The notes beneath the pieces were generated by a model. That model saw only the letters and a program-made list of their open reading frames with translations. It was not told where the DNA came from and made no database searches. From Paralichthys olivaceus (lineage: Eukaryota; Chordata; Actinopteri; Pleuronectiformes; Paralichthyidae), in assembly GCF_024713975.1 (NCBI RefSeq), contig NC_091110.1, forward strand, positions 3,659,501 through 3,723,500: a stretch of DNA of 64,000 nucleotides, given 5' to 3'. Of the stretch, positions 15,226 to 61,600 are shown piece after piece. The position numbers were made by a program, and so were the translations under genes. Within the stretch, counting starts at the first letter, position 1. Every line of letters begins with the position of its first letter.

Positions 15226-15907
15226 AGATTTCAACAGAGGACAAAATGTAGCACTAAATATTTTTAATTGATGCCTCAATTTCTCACCACTGTTATTAAG
15301 TATTGTTGGTGGGTCTGTGTCCATGTAATCATGTGGAGACTTTTCTGTCACCATGTGTCCAATATTTCTATGCAAATAATCAAAATCCTATTTGCATAAT
15401 GATATACACAGTCTCTTTATTCTGGACAGCCAACACAACAAGACCAACAGGAATATGGAAAAATAAAGTGCTATGTTTGCCTACTGTTTAATTTATTTAT
15501 TGAAAACAATACAGAATATGTACAGAATAAAATGTGCGGACTGACAATATTTGCAATTTCATAAGGTTGTATTACAGTATATGCTCTTTCCTTGTTGATT
15601 CACAAACTAACCTGTTGAGTGTGTGTTCCTCCACAGTTTACTGATGATTCACTGAAGAAATCTAAACATGCCTCTGGCTGTTCAACTGATTTATACTGTA
15701 AATATTATTTTCCTGGCAGATACCCAGGTTTTGCTATTTAAAGTAGAAGAGACTGAACAAGGAAAGGAGTTTGTTAACTACCTTAACATACAACAGAATA
15801 TCTCACTTAACATTAAATGTTTTATTAAAGCTATATGTGCATTATGCTTTCATAAAGAATGATACAATTCCCTGCAATGTAAGAAAGGAACATAACAGCA
15901 CCTGGCT

Positions 15908-16915
15908 TCACAGCCTTCTACCTTCAATGGAGGAAATGTTGTTCTCAGGAGAATCTGTCTGATCTGTATTGTGACTTCGTCTCAGCAGTTTGTTCAGGAT
16001 CTTCTTGAAGGCGTCACTACTGGCTGGGCTCGAGAAATAATACACCAGAGGGTTGAGGACGCTGTTGAAGTAAGTTAAACACACCGACGTGTAGAATGCC
16101 AGGTTGGCTTCTTCAAAATATTTGCACTCGTCATACCAAACCTTGAGGATCCATACAGTGATACGGGATATAGTGCTGGGAAAGAAACACAAAATAAAGA
16201 TCAACGCCACAGCCAACACGAACTGAACAGCTCGCTTGATTTTCCCCTCTCTGTCCACAGTCCTGCTTTTCAGCTGCCAAGTGATTCTGATTGTGCAGAA
16301 GGCGACGATTACAGTCGGCAGGAAGAACTCGATGACATAGAAAGTATTGTGCCAGGTGGCGAGGGGGCCGTAGCCCATGCATATGTTGAAACTCTCACAC
16401 TGTGTTCCATTGTTATTGTAGAAGAAGTGCTTATCTGCAAGAAGGTTACCAGTTGCAAGAAATATCAGACACCAGAGGCCGACAGAAACCCAGAGAGCAT
16501 AGCCCAGGCCCATTCGGTTGATCTTGTTCATTGGGTGGACGATCTTGAAGTATCGATCAACAGCCACGGCAGTGAGGAAGAAGATCCCTGCTGCACGGTT
16601 GGCTGCCAGCAGAAAGAGTAGGATACGACACGGGACATCGCCATACAGCCATTTTTTTCCACGAATGTAGTAGTCTGCTCTGAAGGGCAGGCAGAACAGC
16701 ACAATGGAGTCAGCAACAGCCAGGTGAGTCAGATACACAGAGTTGGGCTTCCATGTGTCCATGTGAAAGATGAACATCCACAGTGTAACAAAGTTCCCAG
16801 TGAGTCCAAACATGAACTCCAGGATCAGAATTGGAGGCAAAAACTGGTCCAGGGTGGGAGACTCGAAGGCGCAGCACTTCTCATCCAGTGTAAGATTCAT
16901 TGCTGAAACGGCCAC
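15908..16915 (-). CDS. hydroxycarboxylic acid receptor-like GPCR, copy 1
   Basis: This is an intact single-exon class A GPCR of 335 residues. Related mammalian receptors HCAR1-3 couple to Gi and sense lactate, 3-hydroxybutyrate/niacin or 3-hydroxyoctanoate. Visible hallmarks are seven hydrophobic segments, an N-terminal NLT glycosylation sequon at residue 7, and a TM3 Arg107 in AANRAAG that matches the carboxylate-binding Arg of HCAR1/2. Also present are VDRYF (DRY at 120-122), Cys96 and Cys173 for the conserved disulfide, CFFP in TM6 (243-246), and NPLVYY in TM7. Position next to denr and ccdc62 matches the mammalian HCAR locus. The start may be Met6 rather than Met1, because MNLTLDEKCC aligns better with HCAR2 and a TTTCAG acceptor-like site lies just before it. 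The specific ligand cannot be assigned. Candidate polyadenylation signals (AATAAA on the minus strand) lie at 15821-15826 and near 15490. Confidence 0.93.
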   Translation of the reverse strand: MAVSAMNLTLDEKCCAFESPTLDQFLPPILILEFMFGLTGNFVTLWMFIFHMDTWKPNSVYLTHLAVADSIVLFCLPFRADYYIRGKKWLYGDVPCRILLFLLAANRAAGIFFLTAVAVDRYFKIVHPMNKINRMGLGYALWVSVGLWCLIFLATGNLLADKHFFYNNNGTQCESFNICMGYGPLATWHNTFYVIEFFLPTVIVAFCTIRITWQLKSRTVDREGKIKRAVQFVLAVALIFILCFFPSTISRITVWILKVWYDECKYFEEANLAFYTSVCLTYFNSVLNPLVYYFSSPASSDAFKKILNKLLRRSHNTDQTDSPENNISSIEGRRL

Positions 16916-17572
16916 TGAAACACTACACCAACCTGCTGCTGTTTATGGTGTCAAAACCGATATACTGTACCAGGTGACTTCTTTGGTAGGGAATCATGTT
17001 TGCATTTACACAAATGATTCTCAGACAATTCATGAGTGTAAGGAACGTCTGTGCCTTATATGTTATGTTTGGGGAAATGGTACTGACGGAAAGGAGCACA
17101 GCAGCAATTGTAAATGTTATCTGTCTGGGGATTGTGTCTTCATTATAAAACTATTATGTAGCAGAATAGGTGCACACATGGGTATCGAGTAGGATTAAAG
17201 AAAACAAGTGCCCTGTGGCTGAGGAAAAGCAAGTGGCTGCAACAACATAACTACAAAGTGTACATAAACATCACAACTCTGGAGAAAACCTTTTGAAAAT
17301 CAGACACTTTGAAATAAATAACAAATTTGGAAAAAAGAGAAGTACATGTGAGAGAGACTGAAATTTATTAGCCTACAGTTGCTTGAGTGAAGAACATTAT
17401 GGGAGGAAGTCATGCCACACCACACCTTTGGCAAATGAGAGAAAGTGGCCATTAACTAAAAAAATGCCGGGTGAGTGGCCAAGTCCGCAGCTTTTTATGT
17501 ACAGTAAATAAAAGAGGTATAAAATGACTTAATGTGTACATTTGGCCAGGTTGTCGCTGTTACAGGTCGCAT

Positions 17573-17890
17573 CCAACTGGATACCTCTCCCCTCACCTTC
17601 CAGGTGGGTAGGAGAACCTACAGAGGGCTTAAGGTGACGTAAAAGAAAAAGTCCCTCTCTAAAGACAGGATTGTGTTGTTGTTCTGTACTACTGTAGAAC
17701 AATAATGGTGCAACCTGGTGGACTCTAAGAAAACCAGTTCCACATGAAGATATAAGGGCTCATTCAATAGTTAGGAAAATACAACCATCATTAGTGTAAG
17801 GGGATTAGACACTAATGAAAACATCAGTATGAATATTTGATTCCATTTCTGACAGTGAATCTTTCTAAATCCTTCACACTGATCCTTTAA
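17573..17890. mobile_element. MITE-like element remnant in hcar unit 1
   Basis: This is a 5'-truncated copy of the short element described at 22896-23147. It lacks the left terminus because of the deletion junction, and keeps the right terminus CTAAATCCTTCACACTGATCC. Confidence 0.6.
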
Positions 17891-18537
17891 ATGCTGTAAA
17901 AGGTAACAGGATAAAATGCGATCCTTGATAAAAAGCTCATATGCCTGAAATTAACGCTGTTTGGAGACTTTTCTGTCACCGTGTGTCCAATGTTTCTATG
18001 CAAAATTAATCAAAATCCTATTTGCATAATGATATACACAATCTCTTTATTCTGGACAGCCAACAAGACAAGACCAAAAGGAATATGGCAAATTAAAGTG
18101 CTATGTTTGCCTACTGTTTAATTTATTTATTGAAAACAATACAGAATATGTACAGAATAAAATGTGCAGACTGACAATATTTGCAATTTCATAAGGTTGT
18201 ATTACAGTATATGCTCTTTCTTTGTTGATTCACAAACTAACCTGTTGAGTGTGTGTTCCTCCACAGTTTACTGATGATTCACTGAAGAAATCTAAACATG
18301 CCTCTGGCTGATCAACTGATTTATACTGTAAATATTATTTTCCTGGCAGATACCCAGGTTTTGCTATTTAAAGTAGAAGTGACTGAACAAGGAAAGGAGT
18401 TTGTTAACTACCTTAACATACAACAGAATATCTCACTTAACATTAAATGTTTTATTTAAGCTATATGTGCGTTATGCTTTCATAAAGAATGATACAATTC
18501 CCTGCAATGTAAGAAAGGAACATAACAGCACCTGGCT

Positions 18538-19545
18538 TCACAGCCTTCTACCTTCAATGGAGGAAATGTTGTTCTCAGGAGAATCTGTCTGATCTGTATC
18601 GTGACTTCGTCTCAGTAGTTTGTTCAGGATCTTCTTGAAGGCGTCACTACTGGCTGGGCTCGAGAAATAATACAACACAGGGTTGAGGACGCTGTTGAAG
18701 TAAGTTAAACACACCGACGTGTAGAATGCCAGGTTGGCTTCTTCAAAATATTTGCACTCATCATACCAAACCTTGAGGATCCATACAGCGATACGGGATA
18801 TAGTGCTGGGAAAGAAACACAAAATAAAGATCAACGCCACAGCCAACACGAACTGAACAGCTCGCTTGATTTTCCCCTCTCTGTCCACAGTCCTGCTTTT
18901 CAGCTGCCAAGTGATTCTGATTGTGCAGAAGGCGACGATTACAGTCGGCAGGAAGAACTGGATGACATAGAAAGTATTGTGCCAGGTGACAAGGGGGCCG
19001 AAGCCCATGCATATGTTGAAACTCTCACACTGTGTTCGGTTGTTATTGTAGAAGAAGTGCTTATCTGCAAGAAGGTTACCAGTTGCAAGAAATATCAGAC
19101 ACCAGAGGCCGACAGAAACCCAGAGAGCATAGCCCAGGCCCATTCGGTTGATCTTGTTCATTGGGTGGACGATCTTGAAGTATCGATCAACAGCCACGGC
19201 AGTGAGGAAGAAGATCCCTGCTGCACGGTTGGCTGCCAGCAGAAAGAGTAGGATACGACACGGGACATCGCCATACAGCCAGTTCTTTCCACGAATGTAG
19301 TAGTCTGCTCTGAAGGGCAGGCAGAACAGCACAATGGAGTCAGCAACAGCCAGGTGAGTCAGATACACAGAGTTGGGCTTCCATGTGTCCATGTGAAAGA
19401 TGAACATCCACAGCGCGACAAAGTTCCCAGTGAGTCCAAACATGAACTCCAGGATCAGAATTGGAGGCAAAAACTGGTCCAGGGTGGGAGACTCGAAGGC
19501 GCAGCACTTCTCATCCAGTGTAAGATTCATTGCTGAAATGGCCAC
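18538..19545 (-). CDS. hydroxycarboxylic acid receptor-like GPCR, copy 2
   Basis: This is an intact 335-residue single-exon receptor differing from copy 1 at about 11 residues, including T44A, K88N, G170R, Y182F, A186V, E196Q, T253A, and NPLVYY changed to NPVLYY. TM3 Arg107, DRY, Cys96/Cys173 and CFFP are retained, so it should fold and signal like copy 1. The second extracellular loop still holds an N-glycosylation sequon (NRT). E196Q lies at the extracellular side of TM5 and could alter charge near the ligand entrance; that is inference. The flanks are duplicated along with the gene. Confidence 0.93.
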   Translation of the reverse strand: MAISAMNLTLDEKCCAFESPTLDQFLPPILILEFMFGLTGNFVALWMFIFHMDTWKPNSVYLTHLAVADSIVLFCLPFRADYYIRGKNWLYGDVPCRILLFLLAANRAAGIFFLTAVAVDRYFKIVHPMNKINRMGLGYALWVSVGLWCLIFLATGNLLADKHFFYNNNRTQCESFNICMGFGPLVTWHNTFYVIQFFLPTVIVAFCTIRITWQLKSRTVDREGKIKRAVQFVLAVALIFILCFFPSTISRIAVWILKVWYDECKYFEEANLAFYTSVCLTYFNSVLNPVLYYFSSPASSDAFKKILNKLLRRSHDTDQTDSPENNISSIEGRRL

Positions 19546-20130
19546 TGAAACACTACACCAACCTGCTGCTGTTTATAGTGTCAAAACTGATATACTGTAC
19601 TAGGTGACTTCTTTGGTAGGGAATCATGTTTGCATTTACACAAATGATTGTCAGACAATTCATGAGTGAAAGGAACGTCTGTGCGTTGTATGTTATGATT
19701 GGGGAAGTGGTACTGATGCAAAGGAGCACGGCAGAAATTGTAAGTGTTATCTGTCTGGGGATTGTGCCTTCATTATAAAACTATTATGTAGCAGAATAGG
19801 TGCACACATGGGTATCGAGTAGGATTAAAGAAAAACAAGTGCCCTGTGGCTGAGGAAAAGCAAGTGGCTGCAACAACATAACTACAAAGTGTACATAAAC
19901 ATCACAACTCTGGAGAAAACCTTTTGAAAATCAGACACTTTGAAATAAATGACAAATTTGGAAAAAAGACGTGAGAAGTAGCGGTGAGAGAGACTGAAAT
20001 TTATTAGCCTACAGTTGCTTGAGTGAAGAACATTATGGGAGGAAGTCACGCCAGACCACACCTTTGGCAAATGATAGAAAGTGGCTATTAACTCAAAAGA
20101 TGCCGGGTGAGTAGCATTACAGGTCACATC

Positions 20131-20447
20131 CAACTGGATACCTCTCCCCTCACCTTCCAGGTGGGTAGGAGAACCTACAGAGGGCTTAAGGTGACGTAAA
20201 AGAAAAAGTCCCTCTCTAAAGACAGGATTGTGTTGTTGTTCTGTACTACTGTAGAAAAATAATGGTGCAACCTGGTGGACTCTAAGAAAACCAGTTCCAC
20301 ATGAAGATATAAGGGCTCATTCAATAGTAAGGAAAATACAACCATCATTAGTGTAAGGGGATTAGACACTAATAAAAAAATCAGTATGAATATTTTATTC
20401 CATTTCTGACAGTGAATCTTTCTAAATCCTTCACACTGATCCTTTAA
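20131..20447. mobile_element. MITE-like element remnant in hcar unit 2
   Basis: It has the same truncation and internal sequence as the unit 1 copy, so it was carried along by the tandem duplication rather than inserted anew. Confidence 0.6.
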
Positions 20448-21094
20448 ATGCTGTAAAAGGCAACAGGATAAAATGCGATCCTTGATAAAAAGCTCATATG
20501 CCTGAAATTAACACTGTTTGGAGACTTTTCTGTCACCGTGTGTCCAATGTTTCTATGCAAAATTAATCAAAATCCTATTTGCATAATGATATACACAATC
20601 TCTTTATTCTGGACAGCCAACAAGACAAGACCAAAAGGAATATGGCAAATTAAAGTGCTATGTTTGCCTACTGTTTAATTTATTTATTGAAAACAATACA
20701 GAATATGTACAGAATAAAATGTGCAGACTGACAATATTTGCAATTTCATAAGGTTGTATTACAGTATATGCTCTTTCCTTGTTGATTCACAAACTAACCT
20801 GTTGAGTATGTGTTCCTCCACAGTTTACTGATGATTCACTGAATAAATCTAAACATGCCTCTGGCTGATCAACTGATTTATACTGTAAATATTATTTTCC
20901 TGGCAGATACCCAGGTTTTGCTATTTAAAGTAGAAGTGACTGAACAAGGAAAGGAGTTTGTTAACTACCTTAACATACAACAGAATATCTCACTTAACAT
21001 TAAATGTTTTATTTAAGCTATATGTGCGTTATGCTTTCATAAAGAATGATACAATTCCCTGCAATGTAAGAAAGGAACATAACAGCACCTGGCT

Positions 21095-22102
21095 TCACAG
21101 CCTTCTACCTTCAATGGAGGAAATGTCGTTCTCAGTAGAATCTGTCTGATCTGTATTGTGACTTCGTCTCAGCAGTTTGTTCAGGATCTTCTTGAAGGCG
21201 CCACTAAAGGCTGGGCTCGAGAAATAATACACCACAGGGTTGAGGACGCTGTTGAAGTAAGTGAAACACACCGACGTGTAGAATGCCAGGTTGGCTTCTT
21301 CAAAATATTTGCACTCATCATACCACAGCTTAAGGATCCATACAGCGATACGGGATATAGTGCTGGGAAAGAAACACAAAATAAAGATCAACGCCACAGC
21401 CAACACGAACTGAACAGCTCGCTTGATTTTCCCCTTTTTGTCCAGAGTCCTGCTTTTCAGCTGCCAAGTGATTCTGATTGTGCAGAAGGCGACGATTACA
21501 GTCGGCAGGAAGAACTGGATGACATAGAAAGTATTGTGCCAGGTGGCGAGAGGGCTGAAGCCCATGCATATGTTGAAACTCTCACACTGTGTTCGGTTGT
21601 TATTGTAGAAGAAGTGCTTATCTGCAAGAAGGTAACCAGTTGCAAGAAATATCAGACACCAGAGGCCGACAGAAACCCAGAGAGCATAGCCCAGGCCCAT
21701 TCGGTTGATCTTGTTCATTGGGTGGACGATCTTGAAGTATCGATCAACAGCCACGGCAGTGAGGAAGAAGATCCCTGCTGCACGGTTGGCTGCCAGCAGA
21801 AAGAGTAGGATACGACACGGGACATCGCCATACAGCCAGTTCTTTCCACGCCTGTAGTAGTCTGCTCTGAAGGGCAGGCAGAACAGCACAATGGAGTCAG
21901 CAACAGCCAGATGAGTCAGATACACAGAGTTGGGCTTCCATGTGTCCATGTGAAAGATGAACATCCACAGCGCAACAAAGTTTCCAATGAGTCCAAACAT
22001 GAACTCCAGGATCAGAATTGGAGGCAAAAACTGGTCCAGGGTGGGAGACTCGAAGGCGCAGCACTTCTCATCCAGTGTAAGATTCATTGCTGAAACGGCC
22101 AC
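21095..22102 (-). CDS. hydroxycarboxylic acid receptor-like GPCR, copy 3
   Basis: This is an intact 335-residue copy and the most diverged of the three, with about 18 differences from copy 2. They include T39I, I84R, N157Y, G183S, R222K/E223K in the third intracellular loop, V259L, S299F and D301G. All GPCR hallmarks remain: TM3 Arg107, DRY, CFFP, NPVVYY. The start codon lies 684 bp from the denr stop codon, so the denr 3' UTR probably overlaps this gene's promoter. I84R adds a positive charge in the first extracellular loop. Whether this copy is expressed or has a distinct ligand cannot be read from sequence. Confidence 0.93.
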   Translation of the reverse strand: MAVSAMNLTLDEKCCAFESPTLDQFLPPILILEFMFGLIGNFVALWMFIFHMDTWKPNSVYLTHLAVADSIVLFCLPFRADYYRRGKNWLYGDVPCRILLFLLAANRAAGIFFLTAVAVDRYFKIVHPMNKINRMGLGYALWVSVGLWCLIFLATGYLLADKHFFYNNNRTQCESFNICMGFSPLATWHNTFYVIQFFLPTVIVAFCTIRITWQLKSRTLDKKGKIKRAVQFVLAVALIFILCFFPSTISRIAVWILKLWYDECKYFEEANLAFYTSVCFTYFNSVLNPVVYYFSSPAFSGAFKKILNKLLRRSHNTDQTDSTENDISSIEGRRL

Positions 22103-22785
22103 TGAAACACTACACCAACCTGCTGCTCTTTATAGTGTAAACACTGATAGGCTGCACCAGGTGACTTCTTTGGTAGGGAATCATGTTTGCGTTCACACAA
22201 ATGATTCTAAGACAAACATCTTAATTCGTGAGTGAAAGGAACATCTGTGCAATGTGTGTTATCTTTGGGGAAGTGGTACTGACGCAAAGGAGCACGGCAG
22301 CAATTGTAAATGTTATCTGTCTGGGGATTGTGTCTTCATTATAAAACTATTATGTAGCAGAATAGGTGCACACATGGGTATCGAGTAGGATTAAAGAAAA
22401 ACAAGTGCCCTGTGGCTGAGGAAAAGCAAGTGGCTGCAACAACATAACTACAAAGTGTACATAAACATCACAACTCTGGAGAAAACCTTTTGAAAATCAG
22501 ACACTTTTGGAAAAAAGACGTGAGAAGTAGCGGTGAGAGAGACTGAAATTTATTAGCCTACAGTTGCTTGAGTGAAGAACATTTGGGGAGGAAGTCACGC
22601 CAGACCACACCTTTGGCAAACGAGAGAAAGTGGCTATTAACTAAAAAAATGCCAGGTGAGTGGCCAAGTCCGCAGCTTTTTATGTACAGTAAATAAAAGA
22701 GGTATAAAATGACTTAATGTGTACATTTGGCCAGGTTGTCGCTGTTACAGGTCACATCCATTTTTTCAAAGTGCATATTTGGTCT

Positions 22786-25700
22786 TCACTTCTTGACTTC
22801 ACCCAGATCATCAATGCTGTCATCATCCACCTACAACAAAAAGTATTTGATTTCAAAAGGGCATCTTCAAATGTTAAAGAAAAAAAAAAAACAAGTTAAA
22901 TGGTCCAGTGTGTAGGATTTAGATACATCTAGTGGTGAAGTTGCAGATTGCGACCAACTGGATACCTCTCCCCTCACCATGTAAGAAAACCAGATCCACA
23001 TGAAGATATAAGGGCTCATTCAATAGTAAGGAAAATACAACCATCATTAGTGTAAGGGGATTAGAACACTAATGAAAACATCAGTATGAATATTTGATTC
23101 CATTTCTGACAGTGAATCTTTCTAAATCCTTCACACTGATCCTTTAAATGCTGTAAAAGGTAACAGGATAAAATGCGATCCTCAATAAAAAGCGCATATG
23201 CCTGAAATCAGACAGTTAGAGCCTCAACCTATTAATAAACCACATAACTTGAACAAAGTCCAAGAAAACCTGGAGCCTGCTCCAACTCATCTCTTTCATA
23301 CTGAAGCTAAAAACAGTTTGCTGTGGCCTTTGATTGTATTACAATTTAGAAAATGTACTCTTATCAGGCACTGCACTTTATTTTGTAGACATACTAACAC
23401 TCTTCATGCTCTCAGCATAGCAGTGTGGGTCAGTCGGTCCACCACTTGGGTCCAGACAGAATATATATCATTTTATTAATCAAAAAATTTCAAACAGCAG
23501 AGAAAAAAGTTGAGGATAGATCCAATAATCTTCTCAGCAATCCAGTCAAGTCCCTGCTCTCCTCATGCTGACCATCTAAGATATCTGAACATAGCAGTGC
23601 AGGTACAGAGAGGCTCAAACTCACAGAAGAATGACTTTACACACTAATACTAATCCTAAAGTTCTCTACATGGAAGACAACTCACCTCAGGCCACTTCTC
23701 TTGAATGACGTCGATTATGTCATCTGTAAAATCTCCCTGAATGATAATTTCATCCTCGGCTGTAACTGAGGCACCACAAGAGAATTTCTGGGCAAAGAAT
23801 CGCTGAGCCTCTTTAAGTTCAATGTCTGCAAGAGACAACACAGGTTTCATGTTCAGAATAAGGCATCAACACAAAGGGACTGAAACATCAGAACTTAGAA
23901 AACAAAAGGGTCTCACCGAATGTTGCCAGACCACACACCCGTGTGACATATTTCTTCTTGGCTCTTGGGATTTTTGCTATCGTAACCTTCTGAGGCAAAG
24001 TCTTCTTTTTCTGTTTGATCTGGCCTCTTCCACCTTAAGAGGGTAAAACAGGATTAAACCAGATTTAAGACTCACAATGCTAAAGTCCGCTAGCATGTGA
24101 GGTGGTGCGCCACTGCCTCTGGAGCAAGTGTTACTAATATCCTGTTGTCTGTGTTGCACCATTATTTTTAATCTTGTAACGTTGATTACAGAGAAGAATA
24201 CCTTTGAAGTTTCTCCTTAAGTTCTCGATGCAGTATAGTTTCAAGAGCTAAACATTAAGGAGAATGTGGTAGTCTTCAGTCATCATAAAAAAAAAACCTC
24301 AAAAGATGTTTAGTTTGGACGACTGCAAAAAACATGGCAGCCTCCGTAGAGAGGACCCTCTCCCAATGTGAAGTATTTAAATATAAAGGGCCCATTTTAG
24401 GGTAAAGAAAACAACAATTAATACAATCTAGATGATCACACATCAGTGAAAACATCACTAGGATTATATATATGGTCATCGTAGCTGCTCAAAGAAAGAT
24501 TGCTGTAATACTGAACTGCACTTGCTGTTAGAGGCAGTGATCAGTGATGTAAACAAGGCAGGATTAGGCTCTTGCGCTTTGACATCAAAATTGTTTTTTT
24601 TTAATCTCCCATCCAACATTTGAGTTTGAGTTACCTCTCTTCTGTTTCTTTTTCTCCTCCTCCTCGCCTGCAGGGGGAGCATCTCCAATGCCGGGTTCCT
24701 GCTTGGGGGTGTTCGCTGCAGGGCCAGTGGGACAGAAGTAAAATGGAAGATTAAAACCAATCCCACAACAATACATCTTACCTTTTCAATGAATCCTACT
24801 ATGTCTATATACAACAGAATCATAACAGAGACAGACTAGCCTGAATAATGACCAGTGTGCATCTGTTACCATTTGTTCTACCTTTTTCTTCCCCCCAATG
24901 ACATCATTAAAGACCTTCAGACATAAATCTATTTTTCAAATGATTCTACATCATTCTGGAGCCTGGAAAATGTGGCATAGCATTAAAAGTATACGATACA
25001 GTCAGAAACTGTGGGATAATAGCACAATAGTAAAAGTCACAATATCAATGTTGCTGGGTTCAGGACACATCTCCACAAAAACTACTTCCAACAACATTAG
25101 GAGATATGATAACTTAACAAGCATTTACATTTAATTTCTGCCAGGAATTTAAGTCACATAAATGTAGCTACATAAGCTGTAGCACAATATCAGTGTGTAT
25201 ATTGTGTTATAGTTTATAGTGTAAGCTTGAATTGTCACTTATATATTTATGAATGGGAATGCTGAGACATTGTATTGTTCTATGTACAAGATCTGTAATT
25301 TCTGGTCTTTATGCCGTGTCATTGTGGAAAAGCCAAAAGTAAATTACCACAATGATGGCATTGAAGTTTTTGTATTCATGTTACTGCACCAATAACTAAG
25401 AATAAATACTTGATAAATGCATATTCTCACAGTGGTTTAAAGTAAACAATGTTAACTAAACTGAGGTAAAACTCATCAATCACTTACCAACAGTCATCCT
25501 GGCAAATATATCTGGAAAGTTCTTCTCAAGCCACTGTCTACATTTGGCTGGCTCAGGCATGTACTCACAATACTGCAGACAAAACCGTGTAGTTAGACCT
25601 CAAACAACAGCACAATTGAAAGCACTTTAACAAAAAAACACAATATCCAAATAGGTAAAGTTACCTCTGAAGGCAGAGAGCACACTGCAGAAAGAGAGAG

Positions 25701-29333: not shown

Positions 29334-29390
<57 letters not shown>

Positions 29391-32300
29391 CGATGGCTCA
29401 CACCCTCACTGTGTTTGATCACCACTGTTTTTAACTGTGTAGCTGTGTTGCAGACTCCCCAGCTGAGCCCTGGCACAGCACCCCTGTGAAGAAGGTCAGT
29501 GTCATGCTGATGTCTGTTCTCTTACTTTTTCAGTTTGTCTCTATTGCTCCAGCACCTCTGTCCAAATCTGAGATCACATTTAAAAACTACACACAAGAGA
29601 AAACAGAGGAACACAGTCCAACATGTCTGTTTGTAAAATGCTCAAACATTCAACACATGATACTAAAGCAAACCGTTCTCACAACTTGTGGTAAAATGAA
29701 TGTATTCTTACAATCAGTCATTACACAATGAACAACAAAATACTAATCAACATGAACCAGTACAATGTTACAGTAATTTGTTTTTAATCATTTTAGTTTG
29801 CCCTCAAAACAATAGTAATCACATCACAGCATGGACTGAATTCTTTTCTCCCAAGTTGATATTACTGGAGTTATATTCCTGCAGCCTTCTGCAGCTGTAC
29901 TGTTGGAATACAGTCAGAAAGATATCATTTTAAATGCAGTTTCCATTTGATTCTTGTCTGCAGGTGTTTATGTGCCCAAGAACTGTCTTTCAATTTTTAA
30001 AGAAAGTGGAAAGAAAATCCTGGATCTGACCATTATTCTAAATCTGTACCAAAATTTAATGGGTACAACATCCCTCCAAGTTTTGTGGTAACCAGCCCAG
30101 TAGTTTTTGTGTAATTCTGTTAACGAATACACAAATAAACAAACGCAGACAAAAACATAGCATCCTTGGCGGAGGTAGTAATAAAGTAGAATATCAAAAA
30201 CTGAACCTTAATAAAGTGCCGTTCTATTAAACTACACAAAGCTGTGTACCTAATAAACTGTCAACTGAATGCATATAATGTCATTTTCAGAAAAATGGTG
30301 GTGGTACATTGGATGTCAGCCAAAACTCTGTCCTAACCAGCCTCAAGATGGAGGGCACAGCAAAACGCTGGACAGAGAGGACCCCTCCTATCCCAGCAGA
30401 CGCCCCCTGTCCCCAAAACTCGTTGGACTCTGAGGTGAGATGGATCTGGATTATAAATTGTATAACTACCATGTGCACTGAAATAGTCAGAGGCAGGGTG
30501 TTGATTTTGTGCCTGTGTCTGTGTGTTTGTGGGGAAAATAACTTGACACAGCATGGACAGATTGTTAATCTAAAGTTTATATGCATATGCATGAAGAAGT
30601 TAGAAAATGATAACACTGTGAAATATAAACAGGGTTAGCATTTGTCTAATTGGAGTAAAAACATCACAGGGTATGCATTACTCCCCCAAAGTTCACTTGT
30701 CATGGTCTTTTATGGATGACTTCATGTGAAACTAAAAGCTTATCTGATAACTGAGAGTCAACAGCATAAACCTATGCATTTACAAATGCCTTTTTAGGGA
30801 ATATTAGCTTACTAGAACTTGCTAGAAAGTTTATCTGTTGCTGATAATTGCTGTTGTTTTCTGTCAACCAATTAGTTAATTTACAAATTGTTCATATATA
30901 AATTGTCCATCACGTTGTTATGATGCTGGTGTCCCTCTGTGTCCTTTGATCGAAAGTCTCCTGTGAATGACCTGAGTCGCTCCACCATCCAGAGGCAGAG
31001 GAGGGAGCTGCAGCTGCTGATGGCTGAGCTGAGGGACCGGGAGAGGGAGCTGAACACGATGGCTGCCTCCCATCATCAGCAACTTCACATCTGGGAACAA
31101 GACCGTCAGAGGGTGCTCACCTTGGAGCAGAGGTGTTCCCGTTTGGATGGTGAGGAGGCAGAAGACACGATTTTCTATTTTTACATCTAACAATAACCAC
31201 ATCTGGATTCCATGTTTGGTATCAAAACAATTATATCAAATGATAAATGGAATATTTGTCTGCATCAGTCTTTCTCCTGTGGGACTGCAACTAACAATTA
31301 TTTTCATAATCGATTTATCTTTTGATTATTCTCTTGAATAATTGCTTTGTCAAAAATAGGGAATATTACTATTATAATTTCAATTCTTGTTTAATCAGTC
31401 CAACATTTACTATCATAAAACAGAAAAATCCTCAGCACAGAGAATGTTTCATATTTTACTTCACAAAAGAATAATTATTATTGAGATATTTGTTTTTATT
31501 TCTTGTTACTTATATTATTGTCTTTAATAATTAATATCATCATAACAAGAATTTATTGCTGCTGTTGGTTAATAATATTATTGCAGTAATACCCTGGTGT
31601 CTCTCTCCACCTCTCTCTATTCTCTCTCTTCTTTCCACTCAACTGCTCAGGGCAGCTCCACAGTTATTATTTAAACTTATTCGAAATGTATGTCTGCTCT
31701 CACATAGCCAGCTCATTTCGTTTTATTTGCACAGATGAATTGCAGAAGCGTAATGAGGTGATCAGGGTCCTGACTAAGCGAGTGTGGGCGGTGGAAACCA
31801 GGGAGAGGGAAGTCCAGAAGGAGCTCAGTGCAGCCCAGCAGCAGCTCTGTGAGGTTGAACAGAAACAGCAGCACATCAGCCTAAAATGTCAAGACTTTGA
31901 GGTACCACTGCTACAGCAATACACACTCATGTTCTCTGTGGGAATATAGAATATAATGTACCATCTACTGCTCATAGTCCTGGTGTTTTTGATAAACCAG
32001 ACTCACTTTGTATTATGTAGAATTGTATTTAATGTGCAGACACTTTAAAGGTCCAGTGTGTAAGATTTAGGTGAAAGGGATCTATTGGCAGAAATGTAAT
32101 GTAGAATAATCCTCATGATGTTTTCACTAGTTCATTTCATCCAAATTGTATGAATTGTAGTTTTCTTTACCCCAGAAAAGACCCTTTATATTTAAATACT
32201 TTATATTTACATGGAGGGGGTCCTCTCTATGGAGGCTGCCATGTTTTTTACATTAGTCCAGACTGGACAAACTAAACACGACAAGTGAATGCTACCACAG

Positions 32301-35300
32301 TTTCTTTTTCACTTTTGGAAGGAGAGGGCGAGGTGAGGGGTGTTCAGCTGCAACATCCAATTTCAACACTCGATATCACTAAATTCTACACACTGTACCT
32401 TTAAAATATTGCACCATTACTTGCTCACCACTCAAAGGCAATAAATGTTCAAAACATCGAACGCAACTTCCAGTTTCAGCATTTGTTGGGACTACTTTCA
32501 GCGGTGGATCAACCCACATCTGGTGTTTGAGTTGGTGGAGTAGGGGCTGTGTCAAAATAAATGAGAGTGTGTTTCTTGTACTGAGATAACATGTCACCCA
32601 GTTCATAGTGTTTAATAACGCTCAGTGGTACACTGAGAATAAGATACGTCAGGCTGCGGATACATACGACACAACACTCTTCATTGGTTTCTGCATTTAA
32701 TATGTTTTTGTACGTCTGCTGGGACTGTTGGCTTGTGATGACTCTTCGTGTACACAGGAGGATAAGAGCTGATTATTAATCGCTTTGTATTTAAGTGATT
32801 TAATTAAATACATTTCATACCCAGAAGCAGTGTCCTCTCACACAGGACGTGTTTATTCTGCATTTAAGTGTCTCTGGTGTCTTTAAGGAGAAGAACCAAA
32901 GTCTCAACTCCACGCTCATGGCTCTGTCCACTCAAGTCGGCTCTCTGCAGGTCAGGGAGGAAGAACTGAGTTCCATGCTCAAACTGAAGGTAACAGAAAA
33001 AAGATGTTATTATATGTATTTTTGCAGATGAGGATTATAGTTGATTTCATTTGTGTCTGCGTAATATTTTCGTCGTCTATCAGGATAAAGATGTGACCGA
33101 GTCCTCCGGTCACATACTTGATCTCACAGGGCGCCTACGAGACCTGGAGACGTCGCTAACGGAGAGTAGCTCACGGGAAACCAAGCTCCTGAGAGACTCG
33201 GAGGAAAACAAACGGCGTTACAGAGAAGCAAGACATGAGGTCACACACCTTAAAGGTACACAAGTAAACAATCAAAGCGAGACACTCCCACAATTACGCC
33301 CTTGTTCCACAGTGATTGGCCAGAGGTCTAAAATAGGCTGGGTTCTCTCTCTCTCTTTCAAAGACCACTTTATGCATTTCACTTTCAGAGGAACTTCAGA
33401 TGGAAGTTTTTTTAAAAAAGCTAATTAAAAATCTGGTAACCTTGATACATGGCAGAGAAATAAGTGTTGTTTTAGAGAAATCCAGTTTCTCTTATCCTCT
33501 GTCCAGGTTCTAGAAACCAGGTCTCCTCACAACTTTGTGCAGGTTGGACAAATCCCAAATCTTTAGTTTCTAGCACTGGCTTGTATATGAAATAAAAAAA
33601 GTATCATTAGTTCTCAGAGCCCAGGTTGATGTCTTCAAATGTCTTGTTTTCTGTTTTGTCTTGTTTGCTGAATTGTCTCATTCTCTAAGTGATGATTTCA
33701 TCTCTGCATGTCTTCTCCTCTGTGTCATGTCCTGGTTGTAGAGGAGCTGCAGCAGCAGATATCACAGAGTAGCACTCAGAGGGAGGAGATCATTCGTCTC
33801 AAACAGGAGCTCCAGCTGCTTCACAGAGATCTGGCTTTGTCAGGTACATTAAACTGCAAAATCCATTCTCAAAACTATTCATGTCAGTATATTTTTTTTT
33901 ATCTTCAGTGTTATCTGTTTTAGGACTTCTTTTAATCCAGTTTATGAATTTCCTAAGCGGTGTCTCTACATTCTATAGGCCTGAAGTCCTGGCCTGAAGC
34001 TTATATAGATTAAAAAATAATTGATCACCATACAGTGGGAATGATGTCACCATGATTCATTATGAAATCAAAAAAATACTTCATGGACTGTAGTAATATG
34101 TATTAATCAGCTGTAACATTGGAAATACCCGCATCCTTTTTGGATCAACCAATTATTCTTCATCATATGCTATAATGAAGTCATGATGACATCATTGTGA
34201 AATGAAATTGTAACTATGTTAAAAAGTTAGCATTTAATGATTGGTGTATGTACAGCATATGTGAAGGCTCTTCATTATTTCAAATAATCTTAATTTACCC
34301 CTCTGTCTTATGTTTGGTGTTATGTTTTCTCATTTGATTTAAGTCATTATAAGTCATATTCCTCCTAAATTCTGTCCATCTAGGCCCTAAACTCCTTTAT
34401 ATGAGATAAATGTCAACTCTTGCTGGTCACCACACCACAGTTTAGTACAGATGTAACATATTTATTCAGGTAAAAGATGTTCATAACTTGAAATAGAATG
34501 ACACTCAGCGAGTCCATACCTGCTGTCCTTATAAAACCGAATTTCAATTTACTAGATCCTGATTTGAATTTGGATCTGCGCCAAATTGTACACACTCATC
34601 AACATCATACCATACTGCAATTTTCCACCAAGTTTTGTTGTAATGCATTAAGTTATTTTTGCGTCGTCCTGCTAAAGAACAGATAGACAGACAGACAGAC
34701 ACAAACATAAAAGAATCCCCTTGGCGGAGGTAATAGTACTGGGACTGTAGTTGATTATTTTCATTATCACTTAATATCACTGTTGAGTATTGTTTTTAGG
34801 TGAACTGATATTGACATTATCTTTGAAAAATGCCATCAAGCGATGAAAATTTCCCTTCACACTCATTTGTGCTGTATAGAATTTGATGGACGCAGTATCT
34901 CTGCGGTCTACCTTTATTGATTCAATCCTGTGCAGTAACTTGTTACTGAGACCTCCCAACCTGAGAATCATTCACGCTGAGGTAACTGCAGCATTTGATT
35001 TGTTACACCAGGAGAGGGCGACAGCTGGAAAGACGAGCTGCTGGAGCTGTCTCGCTCCAAACAGGACCGCACCATGTCGGAGCTCCGCTGCCTGCGACAG
35101 GTATGGTGTCTAACAAATCAAGGAAGCAAATGCCAGCAGAGGTCCATCCAGTATGGTGTATATATTGTTCAATCTCAGCTGAGGAGATAAGTTCTTCCTC
35201 GTTCCTCCACCTCACACTGTTGTCATCCTCGTCGTCGAGGTGTGTTTCTGGTTTGGCTGCATACCTGGGAGTGCTCCTGCAGTGTTTACACCTGTGTGGC

Positions 35301-54000: not shown

Positions 54001-56681
54001 CATTGCATCCTGCTCACTGTTATTTCTTTAATATTTACTTTTCTTGCTAGCACTTTGTAAACTCTTTTTTTAAAATGGTTATATCAATATAGTTATTATT
54101 ATTATTATTATTATAATTACTATCATTGTCATTATCATTATTATTATTAATACCAGATTTGAACAGGGTCCACTTATTTCCCCCGAAAAGGCATTTATCC
54201 TCTAAACGTATGTTTATTGTCGGTTTGAGATTAGAGAAAAGCTTCTTCTTTCCTCTCACTGTCGTCGTTATTAAAAGAAGCTCCATCTCTACCGTCTTGG
54301 CTCACCCACATACTGTATTCTCACACTGCCAGTGTTATCTAACTGTTTCCCTTATTACTCCAGATAATCTGCAGAACACAGTCATCCCTCTTCATTCGGC
54401 CTGTCTCCTGTTTAGAGGTAGTATCGTTGAAAAAAATTTTCCCATGAACCTCTGCGGATTATTTACTGTAATTGATTATTCAGCGTTGTGAAATGTTTTA
54501 GTTCTGTGACCTCCACGTGTGAAATTCACCTCCAGATGAGCCTCCACCGTGTTGCGATAAATCTCAGAGTGAGAAATGTTAAAAGCTGGGAAAATAAAAC
54601 CAAATCGGCCCAGACTGCACAGGGTTAGGTTAAAAATAGTACACAGTGTGTCTCGTTGAGAAATAACATAGAAGACTGTGTCATCTCTGCAACCCACATA
54701 CAATTATACTTAAATGAAAACCAGTCACCATGGAGTGTCACTAAATTCGACATATCATTTCAGGTGAAAGCTGACCGTAACAACAAGAAGCTGAGCACGC
54801 TGCAGCAGGCCTCGCGACACGTAAACGACATGGCTGCCGTGGTCGTCACCTCCACCAAGCACGGGCAGCAGCAGATCTCCGACCAGGGTGAGAGAAGGAA
54901 GTAGATGAACCTTTACAGTTCTACAACAATTCATCCTGTGAACATGTCTCCTTCTACGTCCTCAGATAAATTACAGCAGCGGTTAGAAACTGGGTCAAAC
55001 TGTGGGTTAAAACTACTGACAGATCTTTTTCACCATATAAGACAAACACAGACAAAAATGGACAGATGCTGAATCATAGAATCACTTCTTGTTTGACAAT
55101 TTGTCTTCAAAGTAAAAGCAGCTAAATTACAGAGCTTTTTTTTTTTTAAACGTTGTGGACTTGAGTCTGAAGATTGTATCAGTTGCTTCACAGACCTCTG
55201 GAATAGTCGACAATGTATAACAAAAACAACAGCAGTTAAGCAAATCATTCAAACTTACATATAAACCACACATGTGAACAGTGATAAAGAACATTTAGTT
55301 TCATTTTATGATAAACATTGACTGTAAAATCTTCACTGCAGACAAACCGCGTAGGATGAACACAAAGTTTTCTAACTTCACCTTGCACCATAGACTGTTT
55401 ATAAAAAGCTCTGCACATAATGTCCAGCACACAAACAATAAAAAGTCAGTATATTGTAGAACTGTTTGAGGAGGACTCACTAATGACAAGGAACAATTCG
55501 TTGACATGGAGCTTTAACACAGAACAAGAGAAACGTATAATGTCAAACTCGTGATGTGGCTACAGTAAAAGTAAGGGGATCACCAACATCAGCTGGGTTC
55601 ATCTGTGAAAGTCTGTACAAAATGTTATTGACAAAGTGCCCACATGATTAAATATGTTTGATAGCAACCTTATCTCTGATGTGTCTGCAGGTATGATGGA
55701 CTTCTCTGGCATGTCTCTGATCAAGCTGAAGAAAGAAGAAATGGAGGCTCAGGTGAGGCTCATTTTGTCCCGGCTCGTTTTGTGCACCTCCCGGTGATCG
55801 TAACTCTGAAGTTAATGAGGGCGTTCTGCTTCCTGAACCTCTCAGGTGAAGGTGCTGCAGCTGGAGAGCCAGCTGGAGCAGGAGCGGGTCCGCCTGGGGG
55901 AGCTGAGGAAGAGGCACTACGAGCTCGGCCCCTCTGAGACCGCTGACGACGAACAGGAGGCATCTGATCACTTCCCGCCGCCGCCGCCACCCACTCTGCT
56001 CGACTCCACGCCGGTGCCGTCGTCCTTTTCGCAAACGCAGCCTTACCTGAACACTCAGAGCTTTGCTCAAAACAACCCGTTCGCCCCGACTCAAACGCAA
56101 CCCTTCTCTCTGCCTCAGGCTCACACTCCAACAAACACTTACACACAGGCCCAATCACACACACCGTCTCAAACCTTCACACCGTCTCAAACATACACAC
56201 CGTCTCAAACATACACACCGTCTCAAACCTTCACACCGTCTCAAACATACACACCGTCTCAAACATACACACCGTCTCAAACATACACACCGTCTCAAAC
56301 CTTCACACCGTCTCAAACATACACACCATCTCAAACCTTCACACCGTCTCAAACCTTCACTTCCTCCCAGCCTTACATCCCAACTCAACCTTTCGCACCA
56401 AGCCCGTCACAGTCCTCGTCGTCACTTCCTCCACCCGCTCAGCCTCAGGCGACCCCACAGAACAACACTGAGGCCCCCAAACCGTCCTCCAAGAAGCAAA
56501 ATATCTTCAGCAAATCTGGGAACCTGCTTAAGAACGCGGTAAGTGCTGACGCTCAAACTCCTGAGGCTCATATGTGATAATCAGTGGATAATGTGAGTAG
56601 AGGATTCGCTGTGTTTACATGAGTCTGTTTCTTTTCTGATTACAGTTCAAACGAGGTGAAACTGGAACGGGGCATTCCTGA
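39039..56681 (+). CDS. hip1r: huntingtin-interacting protein 1-related protein, 33 coding exons
   Basis: HIP1R links clathrin coats to actin in endocytosis. Exons: 39039-39119, 39417-39480, 41020-41162, 41260-41316, 41685-41765, 41856-41932, 42022-42083, 42630-42770, 42881-42938, 43566-43641, 43737-43868, 43948-44070, 44933-45116, 45201-45289, 45438-45554, 45686-45787, 46973-47167, 47771-47881, 47973-48167, 48260-48407, 49406-49492, 49584-49691, 49797-49933, 51060-51170, 51253-51311, 51405-51435, 51536-51598, 52588-52688, 52811-52916, 54764-54887, 55691-55752, 55846-56538, 56646-56681. All phases agree, giving about 1317 residues (human about 1068). The ANTH lipid-binding domain is about residues 20-300. 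The coiled coil (325-745) includes LQDEQFCLL, the region that binds clathrin light chain. The I/LWEQ (THATCH) actin-binding domain is about 850-1060, with WTEGLISASKAVGWGA and CSHEIAASTAQLVAASK. The C-terminal tail is Pro-rich with an NPF motif and poly-Pro. Extra length comes from a duplicated exon pair and a long tail. Confidence 0.94.
40320..40735 (-). mobile_element. decayed LINE 3' fragment in hip1r intron 2
   Basis: The minus strand encodes a decayed peptide with DHPLKREFQLLPSGHCYRAP, the C-terminal signature after the reverse transcriptase of fish Rex/L2-type LINEs. It continues to a TTCATTGTCCCACGAGG-type 3' end on the plus strand at about 40340. It is a dead fragment. Confidence 0.6.
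40790..40890. repeat. dispersed repeat (TAGTTGTTGAGATATTTC type)
   Basis: The phrase ATGGCTGTCCATAGTTGTTGAGATATTTCCGTCTGG recurs in diverged form at 60380-60450 (ATATAGTTATTGAGACGTTTCAGCTTGG). It is a common fish interspersed repeat. Confidence 0.5.
42985..43145. repeat. dispersed repeat, partner of 27590-28110
   Basis: It carries ACTTTTGGTTGACATGCGGT, ATTGCTATAG, CCAGATCTGGCAGG and CAAATCTGGCCC. It lies in hip1r intron 9. Confidence 0.55.
44355..44625 (+). mobile_element. tRNA-derived SINE in hip1r intron 12
   Basis: A B-box-like GGTCGGAGGTTCAGTCTC follows CAGAAGG. Then come AAGTGTCCTTAAGCAAG, GTGAATGGGTGAATGG and the 3' end CCATTTACCATTTG, the order found in a common teleost SINE. A reverse-oriented copy is at 46140-46258. 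Confidence 0.65.
45330..45415. repeat. short dispersed repeat (CATTTTGGGAAGTATGCTTCT type)
   Basis: The phrase GGACATTTTGGGAAGTATGC followed by AGTCAGATGAGAAGATC matches a very common fish repeat phrase. It lies in hip1r intron 14. Confidence 0.5.
46140..46258 (-). mobile_element. SINE fragment, reverse orientation
   Basis: Read on the minus strand it carries the GTGGCTG.GGGGCTAGAGCGG start and AGAAGTTTGGCAGTTTGGTCC, then the GCCTTGGGCAAG block. This is the same family as 44355-44625. It lies in hip1r intron 16. Confidence 0.55.
52970..53135 (-). mobile_element. LINE/SINE 3'-tail fragment in hip1r intron 29
   Basis: It starts with (GTTCA)n and CAGTTTTATTTGCATAGG.AATCACAACA and carries GAGAAACCCAACAGTCCCC. 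This is the reverse complement of a widespread fish retroposon tail. A GA-rich low-complexity run follows (53125-53220). Confidence 0.55.
53548..53575. repeat. (GT)n microsatellite
   Basis: This is a GTGC/GTGT run in hip1r intron 29. Confidence 0.9.
53685..53800. repeat. dispersed repeat, partner of 3090-3260
   Basis: It holds CCACGTGTCTCGGACCACCT, GTGATCTGAGA and TGGTGCATTCA in the same order as the clip1-intron copy. Confidence 0.5.
56161..56358 (+). repeat. hip1r: 18-bp coding minisatellite in hip1r (11 units)
   Basis: Eleven perfect-length 18-bp units encode TPSQTF or TPSQTY. Two unit types differ only at two bases (ACCTTC versus ACATAC at the end) and are arranged F-YY-F-YYY-F-Y-F-F. 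One unit (10th) has CCA for CCG. A degenerate unit, TSSQPY, follows. The array is in frame in the Pro-rich tail, where HIP1R is known to bind SH3 domains such as that of cortactin. Antisense and shifted frames across it are artefacts of the repeat. Confidence 0.97.
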
Positions 56682-58129: not shown

Positions 58130-58337
58130 GTTCGTCCAGTCTGGGATACTCTCTACCTCCGTAGAGAGGACCCGCTCCAGATGTAAATATAAAGTATTTA
58201 AATATAAAGTCTCCATTCTAGGGTAAAGAAAACAACTGTTTGAACAGTTTAGAAGCAAAAACATCACTAGGATTATTTTAGATACAGATTATGCCGTTAA
58301 ATCCCTTTCACCTTAATCCTACACACTGGACCTTTAA
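58130..58337. mobile_element. MITE-like fragment upstream of rilpl1
   Basis: It carries CCGTAGAGAGGACC, TATTTAAATATAAAG, AACATCACTAGGATTATT and the terminal TCCTACACACTGGACCTTTAA. It is truncated at the left end. Confidence 0.65.
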
Positions 58338-58379
58338 TGCTGCTCTTTTATTGTGAAAGGTGCAGGCGGAAGTAAGGGG

Positions 58380-58642: not shown

Positions 58643-61600
58643 ATGGAGGAGTCCGGGTCGGCCCTGGAGAAGAATGTGGCTGACCTCACGGTCATGGACG
58701 TGTACGACATCGCCGCCGTGGTGGGCCAAGAGTTCGAGCGCATCATAGACCAGTACGGCTGCGAGGCTCTGTCCAGGCTCATGCCCAAAGTGGTGCGTGT
58801 GCTGGAGATCCTGGAGGTGATGGTGAGCCGGAGCAGCATGAGCCCGGAGACCGAGGAGCTGCGGCTGGAGCTGGACAGGCTGCGGCTGGAGAGGCTGGAC
58901 CGGCAGGAGAAGGAGAGGAGGCACAAGAAGGTGCGAGCAGGGCGCTGTAAAATACTGTACAAAGATTTACATCAATAACAACATATATAACATAACACTT
59001 ATTAGTTAAAATATCAATAACACACTGTGTCATGCTCTATTACTAATAAAGATACACATAACTATGGATAAAATACTCAATTACTACTAAGGATAACAAT
59101 AACACACTGTAAAACTCTCAATTGCTAGTAAAAATACCAATACATCACTGTAAAATACCCCATTACTAATATAAATACCAATAACAGGCTGTATCAGATT
59201 CCATTACTAATATAACACCCTATAAATTACTCAAATACTCAATTACAAGTAAATAAACAAGAACCATCATAAAAATCGCAGAAATAGTCAGTACTTCATT
59301 TAGAAATAGTCCATTACAAGTAAAATAACCAGTACCACTAGTACAAATACTCCATTGCACGTCAAAGTCCTGAGTTGAAATGTTTTTTAAATTAACTATA
59401 GTAATATTTGTGTTATCTCTGTAAAATCTCGACCGTATGTTGTCAGATAACTTCAGTATTTACTACAGTTTCTCCTCCTCACATGTGGTGGGGCAGAACG
59501 ATAACGTAGCAGAAAATGTGCATTTTCACGTGCACTATCTCAGAGTTGTATCTAAGCACAGTGCTTCAGTGTGGTGGATTTTATATCTGCCAGTCAGCTC
59601 ACTGCTGTGAAAAAGTCCATTCTCGTGACGGTGACTGAGCCACGGTGAACACAGTCGCCAGTTCACTCATTAACTGAGTCTCATGACAGGGATGTAGTGG
59701 AGGTTTCTGTCAGTGACGGCTGTCTGAGGGAATATTATGAGTCTGCACGGTTTTCTCATGGAAAATGTCACATCATTTTAATTTATGCATTTATGGATTC
59801 AAGATTCAGAGCTCTAATGTGAGGAGGCAGCATCAGATAGAGAATGCTGCAGCTAATGTTTTTCATTCACCATTAATCTGCGTATTATTTTCTACATGAA
59901 TTATCAGTAAATTTTCATTTTTGTGATTCAAATATGTAATTCCTAAGTAAATACTCAAATTTCGCATTTTCACATTTGAGGGAATGACTCATTATAACAA
60001 CAGAAATGAAATGAAACATTTTCTTTTTTGTAAGTTTTCCTCAGTGTCAAATGAAATGACTGACAGTCGTCTGTACATCCATAGATACACTGCAAACAGA
60101 AAACCTATTGTAGAAAATTCAGCAAACTTTGAATGGTTCTTATTTTGTAGAAATAACTTCAGACCACTGCGACTGTACAGCTGAGGCTGAACGTCATTAG
60201 TTCTTGCAGGTGTTTTCGACCAGATGATGGCGCTCTATCAAAAGGGAGAGGATCAAGTTCTCTATATCAAATTTAATTGAAAATCCACCAGTTGTTTTTA
60301 TAAACCTCATTGTGGAACTTGAGGAAAAGTCACAAGATCAACAAAGTTGGTATGGTTCATCCTCCGGTGAATGTTCCAAAGTTTCATTGCAATCTAACAT
60401 ATAGTTATTGAGACGTTTCAGCTTGGTTCATAGTAGTGGCCTGACAGACACAGTTGTCAAAAGATCCATGTTGCTATAGTAACATGTTGCAGTATTAATA
60501 CAGCTAAAACCATATAAAGTGTATAAACATGAGTCATGAAGATCTGAACACAAGGAATAAAGAATTAGAATTACTGGCAGTTAGAGCTCGGTGACATCCT
60601 GAAGGCTGTAATGAGGATTCGCTTGTTAAAATGTCCTCATGTAATAGTATGGGTCAATAATGTATAATAATGTGCTTCACTGTGTGTGTGTACAGGAGCT
60701 GGAGCTGGTGGAGGATGTGTGGAGAGGAGAGGCTCAGGATCTGCTCACCCAGATCGCTCAGCTGCAGGAGGAGAACAAAACCCTGCTCACCAACATGTCC
60801 ATCAAAGACCCCATGAGTGAGGAGGACCTGCAGAGACATGAGGGTGAGGACGCGTGCTCGGAACACACACACACGTGGAAAGAAAAGCTTATGCAACTTT
60901 AATGGTAAAAGGAGAAGTAAATTATTCTATGGTGAAAGGAAAAAGAAAAAAATGTAAATCTGTATTTGTAACACAAATTTATATCGTAACATATGTTTCT
61001 GCAGGAACTAAAATTAGCATCTTCCCTAAAAAAAAATTAAATTGACAGACTTCTCCAAATGTGAAAATATAATGGAAGAAAACATCCAGTTGGAAAAGTT
61101 TCATTATCATACATTTAAGAAAATGGAGGGAGTTATTTGTTAAATGTTGTTTGTGTGCTGGTTTTGCTAAAACTTTCAATTAACATTAATTTTTAATTGG
61201 CTCTTAAAAAAGAAAAAAAACACAAATTATTTATGAAAATTGAGTAAATGGAAATATTTGGTGCTAAGATAAAAACAAAAGTGCAATTGAAACATAGTTA
61301 GAGAATAAATGCTGACGTACATGAAGCACATGTTTTAAATATTACTCCAGCTTCCAGTGAACAATACATTCATCAGATTTTCCTTTGGCCTACACATGAA
61401 TGAACAAAGAAATCAGTAGCACAACACAAGACTCTTCAAAACAAGCATTTGCTTCCCAAACACCAAACTTTATTCACCTGTTATTCCTCTTTAAACACAA
61501 TATATGTTTTCATCAAACTTGTGTAATTGCTGTGTAGAGAGTTCACCCTCCTCTTCATCTTTCAAGTCCATTCACTTTGCTAAAACATGAAAAGGTCCCT

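Follow-up and report, generated by a model that had tools for sequence, protein, structure and literature searches.

How does a tandem gene array come to carry the last exon of a neighboring gene in only one of its copies? The question is raised by a cluster of hydroxycarboxylic acid receptor (hcar) genes next to denr in Paralichthys olivaceus, which we analyzed in a window of 64,000 nucleotides (contig NC_091110.1 of RefSeq assembly GCF_024713975.1, positions 3,659,501 to 3,723,500, forward strand; all positions below are those of the window, the whole 64-kb stretch). A reading of the bare letters, here called the original prediction, had described a tandem hcar triplication whose unit reached into denr, and this was confirmed, correct almost to the single base. 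The middle copy, which had been taken for a plain duplicate of the first, looks from its alignment like a crossover or conversion mosaic of the other two units. Copy number and ancestral state are read from one assembly and are provisional.

Anatomy and junctions of the array

Self-BLAST and a three-way alignment (A1) divide 15334-23208 into three units, arranged head to tail and 2628, 2557, and 2690 bp long (Table 1). The boundaries obtained by the two methods agree, and they bear out the predicted unit starts at 15334, 17962, and 20519 as well as the end of homology at 23208. The near-identity of coding and flanking DNA was also borne out by self-BLAST, with collinear matches of 96.9% between units 1 and 2 (15334-17479 and 17962-20115), 95.0% between units 1 and 3 (15334-17575 and 20519-22760), and 96.3% between units 2 and 3 (17560-20115 and 20117-22664). 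The right-end pieces 17726-17951 and 20283-20508 match 22982-23208 at 97.4% and 96.0%, respectively. Because the E-values of these matches run from 0 to 2e-102, the resemblance among the units is not a matter of chance. To the left of the array lies a CAP-Gly gene (Pfam), presumably clip1, and to the right lies denr on the minus strand.

Table 1. Features of the hcar array and of the adjoining end of denr, in window positions
Feature	Position	Strand	Remarks
Unit 1	15334..17961	-	Bears the original left flank junction, 15333/15334
Unit 2	17962..20518	-	Mosaic: 17962-18569 resembles unit 3, the rest mostly goes with unit 1
Unit 3	20519..23208	-	Bears the original right flank; homology stops within denr intron 6
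hcar open reading frame, unit 1, 330 aa, intact	15908..16900	-	Pfam 7tm_1, 1.1e-40
hcar open reading frame, unit 2, 330 aa, intact	18538..19530	-	Pfam 7tm_1, 2.8e-41
hcar open reading frame, unit 3, 330 aa, intact	21095..22087	-	Pfam 7tm_1, 1.2e-40; best solved relatives human HCAR2, HCAR3, HCAR1
denr terminal exon, coding part	22786..22830	-	Unit 3 only; TAG acceptor beside it; tblastn
denr penultimate coding exon, part, to splice donor (SUI1 domain)	23686..23826	-	Single copy, outside the units
10-nt filler TAACGCTGTT, unit 1/2 junction	17952..17961	+	Sole exact occurrence in the window, both strands
10-nt filler TAACACTGTT, unit 2/3 junction	20509..20518	+	One base differs from TAACGCTGTT; sole exact occurrence in the window
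Unit 3 segment collapsed in units 1 and 2	22758..22956	.	~196 bp gone between two CCA triplets; covers the denr exon and the MITE-like element's left end
Site of further 79-bp loss in unit 2 versus units 1 and 3	20115..20116	.	A1 columns 2164-2242
MITE-like element, unit 3	22896..23148	.	Inverted arms of 33 nt at 22896-22928 and 23116-23148; TTAA inside each edge; units 1 and 2 have a longer interior

The terminal exon of denr was found in unit 3 alone, as had been predicted. Besides its acceptor, the exon is recognized by the tail that it completes: the preceding exon ends in a GTGAGT donor, and the joined 60 residues match human DENR residues 139-198 over their full length without a gap. When the window was searched with this tail by tblastn, the terminal-exon piece was matched once. 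No remnant of the exon (bases 22780-22840) was detected in units 1 and 2, where the best local scores were 21 and 21 versus 25 in unrelated left flank. The end of homology at 23208 does fall inside denr intron 6, another claim of the original prediction that held.

Both internal boundaries are built alike, with ...GCCTGAAAT followed by ten extra bases and then by TGGAGACTTTTC, and the filler differs by one base between the two (2/2 boundaries). No second exact occurrence that could be the source of the filler exists on either strand of the window. Because two independent duplications would hardly share one filler junction, a single non-homologous event would have produced the first tandem pair, with the third copy probably supplied by homologous recombination; the common junction is observed directly, and from there we infer the recombination mechanism. 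One original duplication reaching denr intron 6, as first proposed, agrees with this identical junction.

The units also differ by deletions. In unit 3, TTACAGGTCACATCCA continues into the denr exon and ACTGGATACC stands 196 bp further along, with CCA at both ends (size counted from the alignment), whereas in units 1 and 2 TTACAGGTCACATCCA, with one base changed in unit 1, abuts ACTGGATACC. The alignment therefore supports the view that a redundant denr exon was deleted later and that units 1 and 2 have one deletion junction of ~196 bp in common across it. Both of these units are also without nine bases at A1 columns 1696-1704. The extra loss in unit 2, earlier put at about 70 bp, amounts to 79 columns.

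A loss of about 130 bp had been proposed for the miniature inverted-repeat transposable element (MITE)-like element of unit 3. The shortfall itself stands, as 128 bp of the element interior, present in unit 1 at 17598-17725, are replaced by 3 bp in unit 3 (counted from the alignment). Its status as a loss rests on element length: because the element measures 253 bp from arm to arm in unit 3 and a relative at 32 kb measures 362 bp, loss in unit 3 is likely. Matched directly against the 32-kb copy, the interior showed no significant similarity (score 34, against a mean of 24.8 and a maximum of 38 in 300 shuffles). The relative, at 32044-32405, is a fuller copy of the family with 27-nt inverted arms and TTTAAA at either end; part of another copy lies at 58258-58342. 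In a pattern scan of viral contigs, the 21-base end of the element had 0 matches, and comparison of the unit 3 protein with viral contigs gave four stretches with a pattern, none of them a relative.

A mosaic middle unit

The alignment assigns different parts of unit 2 to different neighbors. Over A1 columns 1-608, unit 2 differs from unit 3 at 3/606 positions and from unit 1 at 14/606, and units 1 and 3 differ at 15/606; to the right of column 608, the count for units 2 and 3 is 66 of 1765 compared columns. A change-point search that excluded gapped columns and columns 2259-2480, in which homology of unit 3 to the others does not hold throughout, placed the break for pair 2-3 at column 608 with a likelihood that 0/1000 permutations reached, and the test was not significant for pairs 1-2 (88/1000) and 1-3 (336/1000). 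Column 608 corresponds to 15939, 18569, and 21126 in the three units, within the coding sequence some 30 bases short of its 3' end. Unit 1 is set apart in 13/16 of the variable columns up to this point versus 26/92 beyond it (108 columns in all; Fisher p 9e-5). Among the 92, unit 3 stands apart in 42, unit 1 in 26, and unit 2 in 23, and all three differ in 1. Unit 2 is nearer unit 1 in columns 609-1000, 1331-1600, and 1601-2000, as well as in lacking the nine bases and the exon segment. Judged by these comparisons, the hcar 3' flank of unit 2 groups with unit 3, and most of the remainder leans to unit 1.

How the array may have grown

The best explanation overall, to which we give a probability of about 0.7, combines a non-homologous duplication, an exon deletion, unequal homologous recombination, and a later exchange, and we infer the order of these events as follows. 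The ancestor would have had a single-copy hcar on the strand of denr and a little downstream of it. A tandem duplication would have taken hcar, the intergenic DNA, the last exon of denr, and part of intron 6, leaving a non-homologous junction that includes 10 nt of filler. The denr gene would have been kept whole, with the adjoining copy (now unit 3) retaining its exon, and the far copy would have borne a dead spare exon that one deletion of ~196 bp at CCA microhomology later removed. The two copies may then have mispaired, and unequal homologous recombination would have inserted the middle unit. At least one exchange would have made this unit a mosaic, its hcar 3' flank unit-3-like and most of the rest unit-1-like, and the flank exchange seems younger than the split between units 1 and 2. 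The earlier proposal that unit 3 is ancestral survives in part, as the ancestral right flank is at unit 3 and the ancestral left flank at unit 1. Because the ancestral flanks are split in this way, neither of the two is the whole ancestral unit.

The alternative that fares best, although we judge it unlikely, is that unit 2 arose as a unit-3/unit-1 hybrid by a single unequal crossover of the two old copies near column 608, with no further event, and that the low divergence of the flank between units 2 and 3 reflects slower evolution there. This would produce the mosaic and the common junction in one step, and the divergence between units 1 and 3 is also lower in the flank (2.5% in columns 1-608 versus 5.8% in columns 1601-2000). 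A single crossover, however, predicts equal ages for the two parts of unit 2. With branch tips counted against the long branch, these parts date to 0.21 (left; 3 versus 13 sites) and 0.73 (right; 44 versus 38 sites, columns 609-2258) of the age of the first duplication, a mismatch with a likelihood-ratio statistic of 7.0 and a Fisher p of 0.013. We consider this evidence moderate and, because of the unequal ages, favor a history in which the flanks of units 2 and 3 exchanged sequence later.

Several points weigh against the history with a mosaic and a later exchange. A site-label change-point test puts the break at columns 207-260 rather than 608 (permutation p 0.0018), so the border of the mosaic is soft. 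Nor does unit 2 group uniformly with unit 1, since two stretches lean weakly to unit 3, with units 2 and 3 as the closest pair in columns 1001-1330 (1.5% versus 2.1% for units 1 and 2) and in columns 2001-2258 (5.3% versus 7.1%), and columns 2481-2707 are tied (2.2% for both pairs 1-2 and 1-3). Bases at columns 44-45, 1879, and 2016-2020 are common to units 2 and 3 and absent from unit 1. Conversion after the triplication could have carried the exon deletion from one of units 1 and 2 to the other, and rate variation along the unit could imitate part of the age mismatch. Three sequences without an outgroup leave substitutions unpolarized, so the exchange may have gone in either direction.

Less probable again is an assembly artefact, in which two haplotypes of a two-copy locus were joined to give a false middle unit, unit-3-like on its left and unit-1-like on its right. 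The order of pieces would be identical, but allelic differences would be expected to be similar in the two parts, and those seen are 3/606 (units 2 and 3, left) versus 45/1539 (units 1 and 2, columns 609-2258; Fisher p 0.00025), besides insertions or deletions of 79, 5, and 1 bases. Very improbable is the history of the original prediction, in which the deleted copy was simply duplicated again, unit 1 giving unit 2 without any exchange with unit 3: it fits the exon deletion and the missing columns 1696-1704 common to units 1 and 2, but we reject plain copying because unit 2 is a mosaic such as unequal crossover or conversion leaves, siding with unit 3 over the 606 gap-free columns of 1-608 (3/606 versus 14/606 to unit 1) and having, like unit 3, the two bases at columns 44-45 that unit 1 is without.

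Receptor genes, parallels, and the rest of the window

Each unit contains one unbroken minus-strand open reading frame (ORF) of 330 codons that starts with MNLTLDEKCC, and all of these (3/3) encode a rhodopsin-type seven-helix domain (Pfam 7tm_1, 140-142 bits). The hcar genes are thus uninterrupted ORFs beside denr, single-exon as judged on their coding ORFs, and the denr stop lies 0.7 kb upstream of the ORF in unit 3. A structure-chain search made with the unit 3 protein, with which the unit 1 and unit 2 proteins share 94% and 95% identity, gave ~305 bits for human HCAR2 and HCAR3, 281 for HCAR1, and 125 for the next receptor family, CYSLTR2, which places the protein nearer HCAR1-3 than other solved G protein-coupled receptors. 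An NR of HCAR2 aligns with an NR of unit 3, with no difference there among the three units; the arginine corresponds to the helix-3 Arg111 by which HCAR2 binds the acid. A tblastn search with the unit 3 protein returned the three copies of the 15334-23208 array and no fourth hcar copy in the 64-kb window. We assign no subtype to these sequences, since one survey confines HCAR subtypes 1-3 to mammals and describes two sets in fish that branch to them (PMC6504862).

Synonymous divergence (dS) between the copies is 0.032-0.042, and the ratio of nonsynonymous to synonymous divergence (dN/dS) is 0.41 for units 1 and 2, 0.70 for units 1 and 3, and 0.64 for units 2 and 3. Unit 3 has 22 nonsynonymous differences from unit 1 and 18 from unit 2, and units 1 and 2 have 10. 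Because dN/dS lies between 0.41 and 0.70, all three genes look maintained under mild, loose purifying constraint; over the whole gene, none of the three pairs gave a sign of positive selection. The copies differ at amino-acid positions 79, 83, 165, 177, 178, and 181, which presumably lie in or near the outer loops, as judged from the HCAR2 alignment. As far as sequence allows a prediction, the array probably provides additional hydroxycarboxylic-acid receptor or divides it among the copies, through dosage or divided expression. The lactate receptor of the family is Gi-coupled (PMC12844162), and zebrafish hcar1 is required for the neutrophil response to butyrate (PMC7575005). It is a speculative and rather improbable extension that the locus is a live copy-number hotspot, where 3' flanks still recombine and coding parts diverge so that the copies would sense different acids, with former denr 3' DNA in the promoters of units 1 and 2.

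Two stretches of the units are unusually uniform. One consists of 204 successive hcar coding columns (21635-21838 of unit 3; A1 columns 1117-1320) without a single difference among the three units, even at synonymous sites (random placement p 0.007), and may reflect constraint or further exchange. The other comprises 213 columns with gaps only and zero substitutions (22334-22529 of unit 3; A1 columns 1816-2028; random placement p 0.0038) about 250-440 bp upstream of the hcar start, and is possibly a promoter or 5' exon.

The array is a clear example of a known copy-number mechanism. A close published counterpart is stickleback MYH3C, where a 17.6 kb unit holds a complete gene and has one breakpoint inside the flanking gene SYT19, a single first non-homologous duplication is common to multiple freshwater haplotypes, and further copies are attributed to non-allelic homologous recombination (preprint, PMC12776057). 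The two loci are alike in having a whole-gene tandem unit, a breakpoint in a flanking gene, and a proposed two-step path. They differ in the junction, which has 4-8 bp of microhomology in MYH3C and a 10-nt filler in hcar, and in that MYH3C is backed by population and long-read data (PMC12776057). A uniform internal junction (2/2) and a mosaic internal unit, the latter a feature that we expect from unequal crossover, both fit an array of the MYH3C type. A parallel with opsin-TEX28 was considered but is not claimed. Growth of the compact hcar locus seems to have left readable scars, namely the first junction, the clipped exon of a neighbor, a copy-marking deletion, and a mosaic middle unit.

The denr-hcar neighborhood is duplicated here too, besides zebrafish and primates. 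On zebrafish chromosome 10, hcar1a and hcar1b are putative tandem duplicates near denr with 93% identity (89% in amino acids), and they resemble the present array in being single-exon genes in a denr-ccdc62-hip1ra neighborhood; there are two copies there as against three here, and the available part of that report mentions no piece of denr (PMC7575005). Primate HCAR2 and HCAR3, of the same receptor family, likewise arose by a recent duplication, between DENR and KNTC1, but the ape tree is described as inconsistent with gene conversion (PMC13237431), whereas exchange between copies is supported here. Trees of such hcar copies will vary with the part of the unit used. Among the titles and abstract openings listed, with subscription journals mostly outside the scope, we recognized no published hcar triplication with a denr exon in fish.

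Elsewhere, the window had zero Rfam matches at the gathering threshold. It contains a pure AC dinucleotide run of 26.5 units at 29336-29388, about twelve 18-nt tandem repeats at 56140-56354 that lie inside a long open frame and read as TYTPSQ units, and a 41-nt tandem repeat in five copies at 59008-59212.

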